From NCBI GenBank assembly GCA_035504415.1, contig DATJRY010000021.1, positions 310,001 to 374,000 of the forward strand: 64,000 nt of DNA. Direction: 5' to 3'. Source of the DNA: Candidatus Sulfotelmatobacter sp. Its GTDB lineage: Bacteria; Vulcanimicrobiota; Vulcanimicrobiia; Vulcanimicrobiales; Vulcanimicrobiaceae. The notes under the pieces were generated by a model. That model had not been told where the DNA came from. It worked only from the letters and a program-made list of their open reading frames with translations, and searched no databases. The stretch's first letter is position 1, and every line of letters starts with the position of its first letter. The position numbers and the translations under genes are program-made. Positions 20,498 through 26,716 of the stretch are shown here, piece after piece.

Positions 20498-21133
20498 TCA
20501 GCGCTTGTCCGGCGGCGGTGCCGGCTTGGAGAGCTCCTCGAAGTGCGGTCGGCCGGGCTGGTGCCAAGCGCTGCCCGGGTGCCAGGGGATGTCCTGCGGC
20601 GCTTGCGGACCGCCCGGACCGGGGCCGGGCGGCGGCGGCGGAACGAAGGTCGTCCGCGTGCCGCCGGGCAGCTGCGCGCCGGCGAGCAGCGCGCTGATGA
20701 TCATCGCGATCCCGACGAACATCGGAATCAGCCCGCCCAGCAGCCAGGGGCCGCCGTGGAAGTCGGACGTGCCCGGCGTTCCACCGATGAACGAGAGCCC
20801 GATCAGGATCGCCAGGCCGATCATGGCGGTTTGGATGCCCTTGGCCAGCGCCCGCTGCGGATCGTCGTCGGGACCGCAGTAGCGCGCCGCGCGCGGCGGC
20901 GGCATCGGCGCGCCGGTCTGCCAGGGCGGCACGGCTTGCCCGGCCGGGCCGGCCTGGTTCATCTCGCGGTACCAGCGGCGGAAGGCGCGGCCGCCCACCG
21001 ACGGCGGCGGCACCATCCCGCGGCGCAAGTACTCCATGTGCTCTTGATGGCGCAGGACGCGCGAGACGATCCAAGCGGCGATCGGTGCGCCGAAGATCAG
21101 GAAAACGGCGATGACCGCGGTGAAGTCTTGCAT
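20498..21133 (-). CDS. Membrane protein with N-terminal helix and proline-rich tail
   Basis: The 211-residue protein starts with a membrane helix (TAVIAVFLIFGAPIAAWIV, residues 4-22), then RHQEHMEYLRRGMVPPP, a short soluble stretch with WYREMNQAG, two more hydrophobic segments at about 105-160, and a Pro/Gly-rich tail. The helix plus HxExMEYLRxGxVPPP motif recalls DUF6249-like small membrane proteins. The N-terminal 60 residues are paralogous to the gene 4 nt upstream. The ATG at 21133 aligns with the paralogue; a longer frame upstream lies inside that gene. It is the last gene of the ECF-linked leftward operon. The function is unknown. Confidence 0.75.
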   Translation of the reverse strand: MQDFTAVIAVFLIFGAPIAAWIVSRVLRHQEHMEYLRRGMVPPPSVGGRAFRRWYREMNQAGPAGQAVPPWQTGAPMPPPRAARYCGPDDDPQRALAKGIQTAMIGLAILIGLSFIGGTPGTSDFHGGPWLLGGLIPMFVGIAMIISALLAGAQLPGGTRTTFVPPPPPGPGPGGPQAPQDIPWHPGSAWHQPGRPHFEELSKPAPPPDKR

Positions 21134-21137
21134 TGCT

Positions 21138-21428
21138 CTAACGTGAGGCTCCGTGATTGATGATGATCGAACCTTCGCGGCGGCCCGAACCGAGGGCATT
21201 TTGCCACGGCGGCAGCGGTTGCGTCGGCATCTGCCCCGACTGCTGCATCTCGCGGTACCAGCGGCGGTAGCCGCGCTTGCCCAGCCGCGGCGGCGGTACC
21301 AAGCCCTGCCGCAGGTACTCCATCCGCTCGCGGTGACACAGCAGGCGTGAGACGGTCCACGCGGTGATCGGTGAGCCGAAGATCAGCATGACCGCCATCA
21401 GGGCGGTGAAGTCGTCAGCAGAATGCAT
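21138..21428 (-). CDS. Small membrane protein, paralogue of the next gene
   Basis: This 96-residue protein has one N-terminal membrane helix (FTALMAVMLIFGSPITAW) followed by RERMEYLRQGLVPPP and YRRWYREM. These match the neighbouring 211-residue protein position by position, so the pair looks like a tandem duplication in which this copy lost or never had the extra membrane segments. It starts 2 nt after the DUF4097-like gene and ends 4 nt before its paralogue, all in one operon. The role is unknown; the conserved basic juxtamembrane motif suggests a shared partner. Confidence 0.75.
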   Translation of the reverse strand: MHSADDFTALMAVMLIFGSPITAWTVSRLLCHRERMEYLRQGLVPPPRLGKRGYRRWYREMQQSGQMPTQPLPPWQNALGSGRREGSIIINHGASR

Positions 21429-21430
21429 GG

Positions 21431-22381
21431 CTAGACGGATGCCCCCTGAGTGACGGTGATGTCGCCGCTGCCGCTCGAGACGGCGAAATGGCCGCGGCCG
21501 GAACCGAGCTGAATGATGTGCGACGAGTTTCCGGTCTCGTCGTCGCGAGCGGTGGTACCGTTGATGGCGATGCCTCCGTCATCGGTGTGGAGCGTCACGG
21601 TCGCGTCGCTGCCGTCGGCGAAACCGACCTTCACGTGTCCGTCGTTGGTCGTCAAGCGGCCGTCGGCGACCCGCAAGCCGCTGGCGATGATCCGGCCGTC
21701 CGACGTGGCGCCCTCGAGCCTGTCGGCGACGACGTGGTCGAAGATCAGGCGCCCGTCGTTCGTGCTCGCGGCAACCGTTCCGCCGCGCACGTCGGTCAGC
21801 TCGATCCGCCCGTCGTCGGTGTGGACGTCGACGTCGCCTTGCTGATCGCTGACCGAAATGCTGTCGTCACTCACGTGCGCGCTGAACGGCGCGCGCAAGC
21901 CGCTGGCGACGACCTTGCCGCCGCTCTCGACCCGGACCCGCGCGCCGGGCGGCACGCCGACGTGCAGCTGACGGTCCCAGAACCCGAAGGCGATGTGCAC
22001 GCCGCCGTCGTCGTCGGGCGTCGAGATGCGTACCCCGTCGGCGCTGCGCGCCAGCGTCACCGGCGCGGGCGGCGTGCCCGTGACCCAGCCCCACTTGCGC
22101 GTCTGGTCGGCCACCCGCACCTCGATGCCGGGCTCGGCGTCGATCGTCACGTCGACGTCGTGGACGTCGATGACGACGCTGGGCGTGGGACCCGCCGGCA
22201 GCTGCTGGTCGCGGGCGGACGGCGTCCAGTCGTGGCCGAACGCGCCGCCCGGCCCGGCCGGGGCGACCGCGGTGGGGAACGACGAGTCGCTGAATCCGGC
22301 TCCGAGTGCGCGAGCGGCCAGGCCGACGATCGCAAGCTCGACGACGACCAAGGCGCCGATGAGGGTCGAGCGGGAAATCAT
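21431..22381 (-). CDS. Exported DUF4097-like beta-structured protein
   Basis: The 316-residue protein has an N-terminal membrane anchor or signal (residues 3-27), a linker, then regular short beta strands from about residue 70 to the end. Repeated units of the type VDVHTDDGRIELTDV, TNDGRLIFDHV and TSDGRIIASGL recur every 18-20 residues, as in DUF4097 beta-solenoids. It is most likely exposed at the cell envelope. It is the first gene of the leftward operon, and its ATG lies only a few bases beyond a predicted ECF-type -10, so the message may be nearly leaderless. A second beta-structured protein ends the divergent sigma-factor operon. Confidence 0.85.
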   Translation of the reverse strand: MISRSTLIGALVVVELAIVGLAARALGAGFSDSSFPTAVAPAGPGGAFGHDWTPSARDQQLPAGPTPSVVIDVHDVDVTIDAEPGIEVRVADQTRKWGWVTGTPPAPVTLARSADGVRISTPDDDGGVHIAFGFWDRQLHVGVPPGARVRVESGGKVVASGLRAPFSAHVSDDSISVSDQQGDVDVHTDDGRIELTDVRGGTVAASTNDGRLIFDHVVADRLEGATSDGRIIASGLRVADGRLTTNDGHVKVGFADGSDATVTLHTDDGGIAINGTTARDDETGNSSHIIQLGSGRGHFAVSSGSGDITVTQGASV

Positions 22382-22385
22382 GTCC

Positions 22386-22417
22386 CATGTACGACCCGAG
22401 CGCCGGTGAGTTTCGCC
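22386..22417 (-). promoter_or_regulatory. Predicted ECF-type promoter for the leftward operon
   Basis: Read on the minus strand, GGCGAAAC (22410-22417) is followed after exactly 16 bases by CGTACATG (22386-22393). A GAAAC-type -35 with a CGTA-type -10 at 16-base spacing is the usual shape of an ECF sigma promoter. The DUF4097-like ATG is at 22381, directly after the predicted start site. Confidence 0.75.
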
Positions 22418-22420
22418 GTC

Positions 22421-22452
22421 GGCGAAACCGAGGCGTCCCTGGCGCGTACATG
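22421..22452 (+). promoter_or_regulatory. Predicted ECF-type promoter for the sigma-factor operon
   Basis: GGCGAAAC (22421-22428), a 16-base spacer and CGTACATG (22445-22452) repeat the minus-strand signal exactly. The two -35 boxes meet in a 19-bp perfect palindrome, 22410-22428, GTTTCGCCGTCGGCGAAAC. The sigma gene starts at 22461, so the leader would be very short. The layout implies autoregulation. Confidence 0.75.
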
Positions 22453-22460
22453 CGGGCAGC

Positions 22461-23030
22461 ATGGGGCTCGCACTCGCGGTGGAACCGCCCCCGGTAGCCG
22501 TGGCGCCGGTCGACGACCAGGCGCTCATCACGGCTACCCTGGCTGGCCACGGCGAGGCGTTCGGCGAGCTGGTGGAACGCTACCAACGGGCGGTCTACCA
22601 CCTCGCGGCGCGCACCCTGCGAGACGCGGCCGACGCCGAGGATGCGACCCAAGAAGCGTTCTTCAAAGCCTATCGGGCGCTCCACGGCTTCCGGCCGGGC
22701 GCGAAGTTCTCGACCTGGATTTTCACCATCTGCTACCGCGTCTGCTGCGACCGGATCGCCAAGCGCAAGCGGATCTCGCCCGACGAGCCGCCCGATTGGG
22801 CCGACCCGGCGGCCGGTCCCGAGCTCCTGGCCGAACGCAACGACGAAGCCGCCCGGCTGCGAGCGGCGATCGAAGCACTCCCCGAGAAGTACCGAACGGT
22901 CATCACCCTCTATCACTTGCAAGGGAAGCAGTACGAGGAGATTGCAACCGTATTAAACCTTCCGCTGGGAACGGTGAAGACGCACCTGTTTCGGGCGAAA
23001 GAACAGCTCCGGAAGGCCCTGAGCACATGA
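22461..23030 (+). CDS. ECF RNA polymerase sigma factor
   Basis: This 189-residue ECF sigma factor has region 2 at about residues 25-90 (ADAEDATQEAFFKAYRAL, then FSTWIFTICYRVCCDR). Region 4 is at about 130-185 (LPEKYRTVITLYHLQGKQY, then EEIATVLNLPLGTVKTHLFR). It should direct polymerase to promoters of the GAAAC-N16-CGTA kind, one of which lies directly in front of it. ATGA overlaps the next gene, a short two-helix membrane protein that I take to be its anti-sigma partner. The ATG at 22461 has only a weak Shine-Dalgarno sequence. Confidence 0.93.
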   Translation: MGLALAVEPPPVAVAPVDDQALITATLAGHGEAFGELVERYQRAVYHLAARTLRDAADAEDATQEAFFKAYRALHGFRPGAKFSTWIFTICYRVCCDRIAKRKRISPDEPPDWADPAAGPELLAERNDEAARLRAAIEALPEKYRTVITLYHLQGKQYEEIATVLNLPLGTVKTHLFRAKEQLRKALST

Positions 23031-23386
23031 TGATGGACGACGACTCTCTCGACCGCGCCCTGGCGGCGCTCCCGCTGGAAGAACCCCCGGCCGATCTGTA
23101 CCGGCGGATCATGGCCCAGACGGTCTACGCCCCGCGGCCTGCTTTTCGCACCTGGGAGCTGTGGGTCGTCGCGTGTTTGGCCAGCCTCGCCGGCTGGCTC
23201 TGCTGGCTGGTCGGCTCCGCCCCGCACGCCCAGGAACGGATCGCGCAGGCGACCTCGCACCTGATCGCCGGCGCGGGCCTGGAGTCGATGAACACGGTAC
23301 TGTGGCTGGCCGCCGGCGTCTCGGCGACCTGGTGGCTCTTGCAGCTGACGCTGCCGGCGCGTCCGCGCCGCATCGAGGTGCAGTGA
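23027..23386 (+). CDS. Two-helix membrane protein, putative anti-sigma partner
   Basis: This 119-residue protein has a cytoplasmic N-terminal segment of about 43 residues (SLDRALAALPLEEPPADLY), a membrane helix at about 45-66, a loop, and a second helix at about 90-112, with both ends inside. Position, size and the 4-nt overlap with the sigma gene point to an anti-sigma factor. The zinc-binding HxxxCxxC anti-sigma motif is absent, so it would be a non-canonical class. The role is inferred from context only. It overlaps the response-regulator start as GTGA. Confidence 0.6.
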   Translation: MMMDDDSLDRALAALPLEEPPADLYRRIMAQTVYAPRPAFRTWELWVVACLASLAGWLCWLVGSAPHAQERIAQATSHLIAGAGLESMNTVLWLAAGVSATWWLLQLTLPARPRRIEVQ

Positions 23387-24096
23387 GCAGCAGCGCGTCG
23401 ACGCCCGCGTCGACCTCGGAGGACGGCCGAACCTACAAGATCCTGCTGGTCGAAGACGACGCGCAGATCTTGCGCGTGCTCAAGCTCGAGCTCGAGCACG
23501 AAGGCTACGAAGTCGACACCGCCACCGACGGGCTGGCGGGGTTGGAGAAGGCGCTCAAGGAGCCCGACCTGGTCGTGCTCGACCTGATGCTGCCCAAGCT
23601 CGACGGGCTCGAAGTCGCGACGCGCGTGCGCGCCAAGTCGCGCGTGCCGATCATCATGCTGACCGCCAAGGACCGTATTCCCGACCGCGTCGCCGGCCTG
23701 GACCGCGGCGCCGACGACTACGTCGTCAAGCCGTTCTCGATCGAGGAGCTGTTGGCGCGCATTCGCGCGCGGCTGCGTGACAAGTCGCCGCAAGAGAACC
23801 TGCTCACGGCCCGCGACTTGATCATGGACCGCGACCGCCACGAGGTCACCCGTGGCGGCCAGGCGATCCACCTGACGGCCAAAGAGTACGCGCTGCTCGA
23901 GTACCTGCTCTTGCACCGCAACAAGGTGCATACGCGCGACGAGCTGTTCAACGGCGTCTGGGGCAGCGACTTTCTGGGCGATTCGAACCTGATCGACGTC
24001 TACATCCGGTACCTGCGCGGCAAGATCGACGATCCGTTCCCCGAGAAGCTGATCCAGACCGTGCGCGGCGTCGGGTACGCCCTCAAGGACTCCTGA
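23383..24096 (+). CDS. OmpR/PhoB-type response regulator
   Basis: The 237-residue protein has a receiver domain (residues 18-130) with the acidic pocket Glu24-Asp25-Asp26, the phospho-acceptor Asp67 in VLDLMLPKLDG, and the conserved lysine in DYVVKPFS. A winged-helix effector domain follows from about 140 to 235, ending VYIRYLRGKIDD and TVRGVGYAL. The GTG start overlaps the upstream stop by 4 nt. About 17 serine/threonine-rich residues precede the receiver, so initiation inside that stretch cannot be excluded. Its kinase partner is the next gene. Confidence 0.95.
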   Translation: MSSSASTPASTSEDGRTYKILLVEDDAQILRVLKLELEHEGYEVDTATDGLAGLEKALKEPDLVVLDLMLPKLDGLEVATRVRAKSRVPIIMLTAKDRIPDRVAGLDRGADDYVVKPFSIEELLARIRARLRDKSPQENLLTARDLIMDRDRHEVTRGGQAIHLTAKEYALLEYLLLHRNKVHTRDELFNGVWGSDFLGDSNLIDVYIRYLRGKIDDPFPEKLIQTVRGVGYALKDS

Positions 24097-25520
24097 ACAG
24101 CCTCCGCACCCGCATCGCGGCGCTGTTCGCGGCGTTGATCGTCGTCGTGATCGCCGTCGGCGCGATCACGATCGACCTCGCGCTGCGGCGCGTGCTGATC
24201 GATCAGGCGAAATCGCAGCTGGTCGACACCGCCGATCAGATCGAGCAAACCGCCCGCGAAGAAGCCAGCTACGGCTTCATCGACGAGGGGCCGGTCACGC
24301 TCAACCTCTCCGACCGGGTCGCGCTCGACCGCTGGGCGTCCTCGAGTCAATTCGTGCAGATCGACACGCCGCAAGGTCAGGTGCTCGGCAAGAGCTCGAA
24401 CCTGGGCAGCATCACCTTTCCGCCCTTCACGCCCAGCCAAGACCGCACGTTCGAGGACCTCGCGCTCGGCGGCAACCGCCCCGGCACGATGCTGGTGCTC
24501 AACCGCATCATCACCGACGCCGACGGCCGGCCGCTGGTGCTGGCGCTGGTCGGGCAACGGCTCGACACCGTCGACCAGCTGACCTCGCGCACGCGCACGA
24601 TCTTGTTCGCGACGGCGTGGGACGCGATGATCATCGTCGCGCTGGTCGCGTACTTCGTCGCCGCCGCGGCGATCGTGCCGATCGAACGGCTGACGCTGGA
24701 GATCGCCGAGATCGGCTCCGAGCATCTGGACCGGCGGCTGCGCTGGCGCCGGCGCGACGAGGTCGGCCGGCTCGCCGCCGCGTTCGACGCGATGCTGGAC
24801 CGGCTGCAGGCGGCGTTCGCGCGCGAGCGGCAGTTCATCAGCGACGCGTCGCACGAGCTGCGCACGCCGCTGACGGTGATCAACGCCAACGCGCAGATGC
24901 TGCAGCGCTGGGGCGGCGCGGACCCCGAGGTGCTGCACACCTCGCTGGAGGCGATCGCCGAGGAGAGCGGCCGGCTCGCGGCGATGGTCTCGGGGATGCT
25001 GACGCTGGCGAAGGCCGAGTCGGGCGACGCGATCCCCAAGGAACCGATCGTGCTCGAGCGGTTGGCCGAGGACGTGGCCGTGCACGCGCGCGACCGCGCC
25101 GCCGCCAAAGGGCTCACGGTGGACGTCACCAGCCCGCCCGGCGCGCGCACGATCGTCGTCGGCGATCCGGGCCTCTTGCGCCAGCTGATCGGCAACCTGG
25201 TCGACAACGCGATCAAGTTCACCGCCGTGGGCGGGGTCGAGGTCGTCGTCGAGCAGGCCGGCGGGCGCGCGCTGATCGAGGTGCGCGACACCGGCCCCGG
25301 GATCGACCAGTCGATCGCCGACCGCCTGTTCGACCGCTTCTTCCGCGGCGATCCGGCCCGCGCGCGCAGCGTCGAGGGGACGGGCCTGGGGCTCGCGATC
25401 GTGCGCTCGATCGCCCGGGTGCACGGCGGCACGGTCTCGGCCGCCGGCCGGCCGGAGGGAGGCAGCGTCTTCCTCGTCAGCCTGCCCGCCGAGCCCGAAT
25501 CCCTCACGTCGGGTTCATGA
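24093..25520 (+). CDS. Sensor histidine kinase, probable CTG start
   Basis: This sensor kinase has a first membrane helix within residues 5-33, a periplasmic domain of about 125 residues, a second helix near 170-195, HAMP, then the DHp domain with phospho-acceptor His254 in SDASHELRTPL. The catalytic domain shows the N box LIGNLVDNAIKF, G1 DTGPGID and G2 GTGLGLAI. No ATG, GTG or TTG precedes the first helix; TTG at 24135 would cut it. CTG at 24093 gives a normal NSLRTRIAALFAALI start, overlaps the regulator stop as CTGA and has AGGA just upstream, so I prefer it. The length is then 475 residues. Confidence 0.9.
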   Translation: MNSLRTRIAALFAALIVVVIAVGAITIDLALRRVLIDQAKSQLVDTADQIEQTAREEASYGFIDEGPVTLNLSDRVALDRWASSSQFVQIDTPQGQVLGKSSNLGSITFPPFTPSQDRTFEDLALGGNRPGTMLVLNRIITDADGRPLVLALVGQRLDTVDQLTSRTRTILFATAWDAMIIVALVAYFVAAAAIVPIERLTLEIAEIGSEHLDRRLRWRRRDEVGRLAAAFDAMLDRLQAAFARERQFISDASHELRTPLTVINANAQMLQRWGGADPEVLHTSLEAIAEESGRLAAMVSGMLTLAKAESGDAIPKEPIVLERLAEDVAVHARDRAAAKGLTVDVTSPPGARTIVVGDPGLLRQLIGNLVDNAIKFTAVGGVEVVVEQAGGRALIEVRDTGPGIDQSIADRLFDRFFRGDPARARSVEGTGLGLAIVRSIARVHGGTVSAAGRPEGGSVFLVSLPAEPESLTSGS

Positions 25521-26716
25521 CGGGGATCACTCGGCAGACCTACCATGAGGTCGTGGACGTCCTCCGGACCCGAGCCGCGCGGTGGATCGCCGCGGGGCTC
25601 GGCCTGTTGTTGCTTGCGCTGGGGAAGCTCGCGCCCGCGGGCGCGGACTCCAACACCCTGCTGCTTACCAACCAGCCGGTCGTCGTCATCCTGCTGGCCG
25701 GACACGGCAACGACGTCACGGTGCGCACCTGGGACCGGCCCTTCGTCCAGATCGACGACCCCGACAACGCGACCACCATCACCCGGACCGCGGCGGTCTG
25801 GGGGACGCCGCGCTTTCCGCTGACCGCGCGCTTGCCGCCCTTCCGCTACGTCGAGCGCCAGGACGGCCAGATCGTCGGCAACGGGCTGATGCCGCCCGAA
25901 GACTTCCCGCTCTCCGGCTTCCGCGCCGGAGCGCACGACGTGGTCCGGATTCGCGCCCTGACCGCCGCGCACGTGACGGTGATGGTCCCGCCCGAGACCG
26001 GCTACCTCGACATCCGCTCGAACGGCGGCTCGACGACGATCGACGGCTATCACGGCGCCGACCTGTTCATCCGGCAGTCGTACGGGCAGATCCACGTCGG
26101 CGACGCCGCGACGACCGCGTACTTCGAGCTGCAGAACGGATTGGTCCAGCTCAGCGACGACGACTTCTCGCGCGTGCGCGTGCGTGCCAATGCCGCCCGC
26201 GTCGTGTTCGAGCGCTGCCGGTCGACGCAGATCGAGGCGACGACGGTCAGCGGCTCGATCGTCTACGACGGCGGCAGCTTCGAGCCGGGACTGGCGCGCT
26301 TCGAGTCGGAGAGCGGCGCGATCGCGCTGGGCGTCAACGCGGGGGCGCAATTGGTCGCGCACTCGCAGGACGGCCGCGTCTTCACCCGCTTCGATCAGCC
26401 GGCGCAAGTCACGCAGCGCGGCGAGAGCGACGCGGCGGCGACCATCGGCGGCGGCGGCGCGCTGGTCAACGCGATCAGCCAGCGCGGCAACGTCTACCTG
26501 TACGACGGCGCGCTGAACGACCACCGTAACCTGGGCCCCGAGTGGCGCCCGGCGCACCAAGCCTTCCGCCGCCCGGCGGCGATGGCGCAGCCCGGCTTCC
26601 AGCGGCCGCCGCCGATGCTGCAGCGGCCGCCGCTCTACCAGCACCTGCGCCGCTACGCGCCCGCGCGGCCCGCGCTCAGAGCAAGAACTTTCGAACGAGT
26701 GCGACGTCGAGCTTGA
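25517..26716 (+). CDS. Exported beta-structured protein (DUF4097-like)
   Basis: This 399-residue protein has a signal or anchor at about residues 18-43 (WIAAGLGLLLLALGKLAPAGA). A strand-rich region of about 290 residues follows, with short repeats of the type IRSNGGSTTIDGYHG, IRQSYGQIHVGD and VSGSIVYDGGSF, and then a Pro/Arg-rich tail (QRPPPMLQRPPLYQ). It looks like a second envelope beta-solenoid, comparable to the protein opening the divergent operon. The ATGA overlap ties it to the kinase gene, so it is either a target or an accessory of the same signalling unit. The tail overlaps the convergent acetyltransferase by 41 nt. Confidence 0.8.
   Translation: MTGITRQTYHEVVDVLRTRAARWIAAGLGLLLLALGKLAPAGADSNTLLLTNQPVVVILLAGHGNDVTVRTWDRPFVQIDDPDNATTITRTAAVWGTPRFPLTARLPPFRYVERQDGQIVGNGLMPPEDFPLSGFRAGAHDVVRIRALTAAHVTVMVPPETGYLDIRSNGGSTTIDGYHGADLFIRQSYGQIHVGDAATTAYFELQNGLVQLSDDDFSRVRVRANAARVVFERCRSTQIEATTVSGSIVYDGGSFEPGLARFESESGAIALGVNAGAQLVAHSQDGRVFTRFDQPAQVTQRGESDAAATIGGGGALVNAISQRGNVYLYDGALNDHRNLGPEWRPAHQAFRRPAAMAQPGFQRPPPMLQRPPLYQHLRRYAPARPALRARTFERVRRRA

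Follow-up and report, generated by a model that had tools for sequence, protein, structure and literature searches.

The region between an ECF sigma factor gene and a divergent envelope operon, in the 64,000-nucleotide stretch analysed here (the window), carries two outward-facing elements that we regard with high confidence as independent promoters read by the product of the ECF sigma gene at 22461-23030, which would thus regulate its own gene and drive the envelope operon. The locus as a whole resembles, we infer, a SigW-like envelope-stress module, in which the sigma factor, a candidate anti-sigma factor with two transmembrane segments (2-TM) and a two-component system stand opposite a divergent DUF4097/DUF6249 operon. 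The window genome was assembled in 21 contigs (4.17 Mb). MAGs of Candidatus Eremiobacterota make up most of its nearest named relatives, and the genomes compared were mostly MAGs from uncultured bacteria.

Divergent promoter pair in the window

Positions 22386-22452 read GGCGAAAC-N16-CGTACATG identically from both strands, from 22417 to 22386 on the minus strand and from 22421 to 22452 on the plus strand, with the centre of the span at 22419. At 22410-22428 lies the palindrome GTTTCGCCG-T-CGGCGAAAC (9+1+9), in which 9 of 9 position pairs are complementary around the central T. This two-strand motif, with its centre and its 19-bp palindrome, had been described in the original prediction, and every letter and coordinate was confirmed. 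The outward-facing CGTA cores of the two arms lie 51 bp from each other, and the predicted starts are approximately 76 bp apart (Table 1).

Table 1. Positions of promoter elements and genes at the sigma factor locus of the window.
Feature	Position	Strand	Remarks
DUF6249 membrane protein	20498..21133	-	Partner gene kept across the family and sister family
Short duplicate of the N-terminus of a DUF6249-type membrane protein	21138..21428	-	Own Pfam match absent
DUF4097 (toastrack) protein	21431..22381	-	Left operon gene 1; PF13349; start codon 8 nt past CGTA
Left promoter	22390..22415	-	-35 CGAAAC 22415-22410, 16-bp spacer, -10 CGTA 22393-22390; start predicted at 22381, the A of the start codon; kept in family orthologues, displaced in G019
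Palindrome	22410..22428	.	Made up of the back-to-back -35 boxes of both promoters, 7 bp apart; specific to the window genome
Right promoter	22423..22448	+	-35 CGAAAC 22423-22428, 16-bp spacer, -10 CGTA 22445-22448; start predicted at ~22457; kept in 87/87 family orthologues, spacer 16-17
ECF sigma factor	22461..23030	+	189 aa; Sigma70_r2 + Sigma70_r4_2; SigW/SigM-like, under NCBIfam equivalog cut-offs
Candidate anti-sigma factor	23027..23386	+	Short N-terminus with LDRALxALPLEEPPxxLxxxI motif and two hydrophobic, probable membrane, segments; ATGA overlap with sigma stop
OmpR-type response regulator	23383..24096	+	GTG start overlaps stop of the anti-sigma candidate (GTGA)
Histidine kinase	24135..25520	+	HAMP, HisKA, HATPase_c

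Within the 64 kb window, the two arms were the sole matches to GGCGAAAC-N15-17-CGTA (0.03 expected; two matches in 0 of 100 shuffles) and again the sole matches to [CT]GAAAC-N16/17-CGTA. A genome-wide scan of the kind suggested with the original prediction (GCGAAAC-N15-17-CGTA) gave 11 matches versus 5 in a reversed control, showing that the plain motif is not rare. The non-random part is the divergent pairing and the fixed distance to a start codon, rather than the bare motif. Since the bare motif is unremarkable genome-wide, conservation was required for judging the promoter pair. No RNA family was found at the promoter locus.

Conservation of the promoter pair

Orthologues of the sigma factor were found in 86 of the 99 genomes of the window's GTDB family (approximately 60-84% identity), and two more in a sister family (54-56% identity); upstream regions were taken from 87 family loci and the two sister-family loci. 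Under a fixed rule that allowed slight deviations, one [CT]GAAAC-N16/17-CGTA promoter directed towards the sigma gene and another directed away from it were found in the intergenic region of 86 of the 87 family loci, the deviations being an 18-bp left spacer in one locus and TGTA, GGTA or AGTA in a few. The remaining locus, in G019, has both promoters intact on inspection, 307 bp apart and with inserted repeats between them. The two sister-family loci show the same arrangement, with GCTA as the right -10 element. The absence of the element from orthologous loci, which the original prediction had named as evidence against itself, was thus not observed. As a repeat structure in its own right, the array at the G019 locus (L046/L240) reads CCTCAGGGTGACA...CTTCGAGACGC and parts the two promoters while damaging neither.

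The exact divergent pair was found in 77 of 88 loci, whereas 8,800 dinucleotide shuffles and 892 flanking windows gave no instance of it. When the columns of 86 loci were counted, GAAAC and GTA proved invariant, with C before GTA in 94% of the loci and C or T before GAAAC, and [CT]GAAAC and CGTA are the conserved cores of the putative -35 and -10 elements, respectively. Some members of one genus have a weaker left -10 element (GGTA or AGTA).

Variable distance between the two promoters

Across species, the gap between the -35 hexamers ranges from -2 to 58 bp, in addition to the 307 bp found in G019. At a gap of -2 (GTTTCGAAAC) the boxes share CG, and such fused or near-fused boxes (gap -2 to 1, e.g., GTTTCGAAAC and GTTTCGCGAAAC) arise repeatedly. 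On the sigma tree, at least 41 gap changes were counted, with at least 8 changes for the near-fused state (gap 1 or less), and the promoter cores stayed fixed meanwhile, with both promoters kept in dozens of genera. The ancestral gap is likely 10, because both sister-family loci have this value. Among the 11 species of the window's genus, seven gap values were found (1, 7, 28, 33, 34, 36 and 45) while 22 of 22 promoters keep CGAAAC-N16-CGTA, which argues that the palindrome of the window is a by-product of its 7-bp gap and of a chance match of three base pairs inside it, and not a conserved signal. The GG that precedes the -35 core is 39-44% conserved, approximately the background of GC-rich DNA, and the 7 bp between the hexamers are therefore incidental to the palindrome.

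These observations bear on the proposal, made in the original prediction, that the mirror symmetry and overlapping -35 elements force polymerases to compete by design. Fused -35 boxes that admit one polymerase would form a competitive switch between the sigma factor and the envelope operon, as might be suggested by the gap of 7 in the window, by the recurrence of gaps of -2 to 1 and by E. coli bidirectional promoters with one strong arm, at which opposed polymerases compete (PMC12825309). We consider such a designed overlap improbable, as 29 of 86 loci have a gap of at least 16 bp, the window's congeners mostly have 28-45 bp and the two promoters of G019 are intact at 307 bp. Moreover, helical phasing of the two -35 boxes was considered and rejected; the raw gap values peak at 0/1, 10/11, 22 and 33/34, where 10 is the likely ancestral value, but this apparent 11-bp periodicity is not robust and vanishes once the 9-11 class is removed (p ~0.08-0.5). 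In the window itself, steric exclusion of polymerases at a gap of 7 is plausible from typical RNAP footprints, as a local and not a conserved property.

Genes of the two divergent operons

The product of the right-hand gene matches PF04542 at 37-104 and PF08281 at 132-183, and thus has region 2 and region 4 only, joined by a short linker, as is characteristic of ECF (group IV) sigma factors. Its scores against the NCBIfam SigW models (NF007223 / TIGR02948) were 131.7 of 209 bits and 114.9 of 243.1 bits, below the equivalog cut-offs. The gene is preceded by an ECF-type promoter (AAC in the -35 and CGT in the -10 element), of a type found in 87 family loci, that is presumably used by the local sigma factor. 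The right arm hence leads, as had been predicted, to an ECF sigma gene, and its promoter is kept across the family. The ATGA overlap between the sigma gene and the candidate anti-sigma gene was found in nearly all orthologous loci, where the motif takes the form LDRALxALPLEEPPxxLRxxIL. No Pfam or NCBIfam family and no known anti-sigma domain was matched by the product of 23027-23386, which possibly represents an undescribed anti-sigma class. Downstream of the kinase gene, the C-terminal part of an ORF at 24617-26716 (+) looks by eye like a second toastrack (DUF4097-like) protein, and the sigma operon may, with this ORF, end in an envelope protein too.

The left arm had been predicted to lead to a DUF4097-like envelope operon, and the DUF4097 and DUF6249 genes found there, with a divergent promoter kept in the family and sister family, agree with this. 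The DUF6249 protein is probably the older partner of the sigma locus, because the first left gene of the sister family, as of many genera, encodes it. Two genomes, G031 and G109 (95-96% complete), have neither the sigma gene nor the DUF6249 partner, a co-loss thus seen in two genomes. Three further genomes (G081, G084 and G106) were rejected as sigma-less, as they represent contig truncations in which both promoters are still present; genuine co-loss is apparent in G031 and G109 only. The remaining genomes with no sigma match were too incomplete or uninformative for a promoter-decay test.

Predicted leaderless mRNAs and candidate regulon

The sigma start codon is located 8-9 nt past CGTA in most genera and 12 nt past it in the window (about 12 in its genus), and the DUF4097 start is found at 8 nt throughout the window's genus. 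For E. coli, approximately 7 bp between the -10 element and the start has been stated as optimal (PMC12825309). On the left strand, CGTA is followed by a conserved G-rich discriminator and then by CA, of which the A, at the ninth base, is 79% conserved. This A is retained although the left gene of many genera begins over 100 nt farther downstream, as is expected if transcription starts there. The left mRNA is probably leaderless and the right mRNA probably leaderless or near-leaderless; the 12 nt found in the window's genus would make the sigma mRNA near-leaderless, not leaderless.

The regulon was sought by pattern, requiring a start codon 8-9 nt past the promoter. This gave approximately 341 matches in 99 genomes versus approximately 63 in the reversed control (column sums), with an estimated third of the 341 being the sigma locus itself. 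Of the 11 congeners in the window's genus, 10 carry this promoter upstream of a gene encoding a 37-38 aa microprotein (loci L145-L154), predicted to be leaderless, with the consensus MKTTTxRPEPxRPVRTLxRPxGADTxPFxGWGPRVPGL and the C-terminus F.GWGPRVPG(L/I/M); the copy of the window genome is located outside the window (G000:C11:523350-523463, minus strand). These loci define a new family of conserved microproteins, predicted to be leaderless and controlled by an ECF-type promoter. The microprotein's promoter in the window genome overlaps the 3' end of an apparent EAL-domain gene. Small proteins of 61-69 aa with ASFGGWGPKV(A/I)G near the C-terminus, encoded at L302 and L303 (G095 and G099) and seen as weak matches in G103-G105, are probable distant relatives of the microprotein; L302 and L303 have no ECF promoter.

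Further genes that recur as candidate targets encode secreted proteins of the aspartyl-protease-like and DUF885 types, DUF4097-like solo proteins, an ABC ATPase, a small membrane protein and, by a weak Pfam match, DUF5916-like outer-membrane proteins. In G015, a DUF4097-like gene approximately 310 kb from the sigma gene (L285, G015:C3:450150-451400) has its own leaderless copy of the ECF promoter; such copies in trans argue that each promoter works alone. Tentatively, and with considerable doubt, the envelope-stress regulon could be leaderless throughout, with the sigma factor, the envelope operon, the secreted proteases and the 37-38 aa microprotein all translated from the transcription start. 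If so, activation of the sigma factor would work together with a ribosome state in which leaderless mRNAs are favoured.

Both promoters could also be real and served by another ECF sigma factor, with the local sigma gene merely a target, since each genome has several further ECF-like genes and TGAAAC/CGTA-type motifs are common to ECF factors of the SigW/M/X type. This is quite unlikely, because the pair tracks the orthologues of the local sigma factor; neither promoter was found upstream of any of 73 further ECF genes (a set of paralogues and of genes from other phyla, with 13 from the same phylum), and G031 and G094 (the latter incomplete), in which no sigma factor was detected, had no leaderless promoter match. 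That a dimeric regulator, such as the adjoining OmpR-type regulator or a repressor, uses the palindrome as its operator, as a 19-bp inverted repeat between divergent operons and a response regulator gene within the sigma operon might suggest, is hardly credible given half-sites that have no fixed mutual spacing and each hold 16-17 bp to their own CGTA, unconserved bases upstream of [CT]GAAAC, and single half-sites with CGTA in trans before other genes.

Proposed regulation by the local sigma factor

Two independent promoters read by the local sigma factor thus remain the preferred explanation. Under this model, the sigma factor would be released from its membrane anti-sigma factor (candidate 23027-23386) and would guide polymerase to [CT]GAAAC-N16/17-CGTA on either strand. 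The right promoter would then boost the sigma, anti-sigma and two-component genes, i.e., positive autoregulation, while the left promoter would turn on the DUF4097/DUF6249 envelope operon, with transcription starting at the start codon or a few bases off to give leaderless or near-leaderless mRNAs. Sigma dependence, start sites, anti-sigma function and a role in envelope stress are all proposed here from sequence comparison. The sigma gene and the envelope operon probably share control; the earlier idea of one sigma factor firing both operons is supported by the conservation of both ECF-type arms with the orthologues of this sigma factor, and its back-to-back overlap and competition component is not.

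A literature search on ECF factors in Eremiobacterota gave no paper. For this little-studied phylum of uncultured soil bacteria, conservation alone points to a candidate stress regulon whose promoter grammar can be read. Moreover, two promoters of one sigma factor, kept in sequence at distances from overlapping to hundreds of bases, represent a natural series in which interference between divergent polymerases is directly testable.

Comparison with known systems

Approximately 55% of ECF factors are autoregulated according to a review, and divergent operons served by one ECF factor are known from EcfG/phyR (PMC8103513). The EcfG / PhyR-NepR general stress locus of Alphaproteobacteria (PMC8103513) resembles the arrangement proposed for the window in that an ECF sigma operon and a divergent operon are both transcribed from promoters of that sigma factor. 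By contrast, EcfG relies on partner switching (NepR/PhyR) and AAC/CGTT-type promoters, whereas the window shows a small 2-TM anti-sigma candidate, putative DUF4097/DUF6249 targets and predicted leaderless starts. No NepR or PhyR genes were found beside the window sigma gene, whose neighbours encode the 2-TM protein, the OmpR-type regulator, the HisKA kinase, DUF4097 and DUF6249.

B. subtilis SigW recognises a -35 element that contains TGAAAC and controls the yvl operon encoding the DUF4097 protein YvlB (PMC3498285, PMC8103513, PMC9239133). The SigW-RsiW regulon (PMC3498285) thus resembles the window in its TGAAAC-type -35 element and has a DUF4097 protein among its core targets, to which the PF13349 gene behind the left promoter would be the candidate counterpart. 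SigW is among the best NCBIfam matches of the window sigma factor. However, the window sigma factor is below the SigW equivalog cut-off (131.7 versus 209 bits), and the anti-sigma factor, the phylum and the gene order differ, as does the predicted divergent leaderless pair.

The bidirectional promoters with symmetric -10 elements of E. coli (PMC12825309) likewise bring opposed promoters close together, where polymerases may compete, but share -10 sequences and have starts that are mostly separated by 10, 18 or 23 bp, whereas in the window the -10 boxes face outward and only the -35 boxes approach each other. Given the separation of its CGTA cores, the window was rejected as a symmetric shared -10 promoter with starts approximately 10-23 bp apart. 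While autoregulation and shared divergent ECF control are already known, the distinctive traits of the Eremiobacterota module are its predicted leaderless output and its freely drifting spacing.
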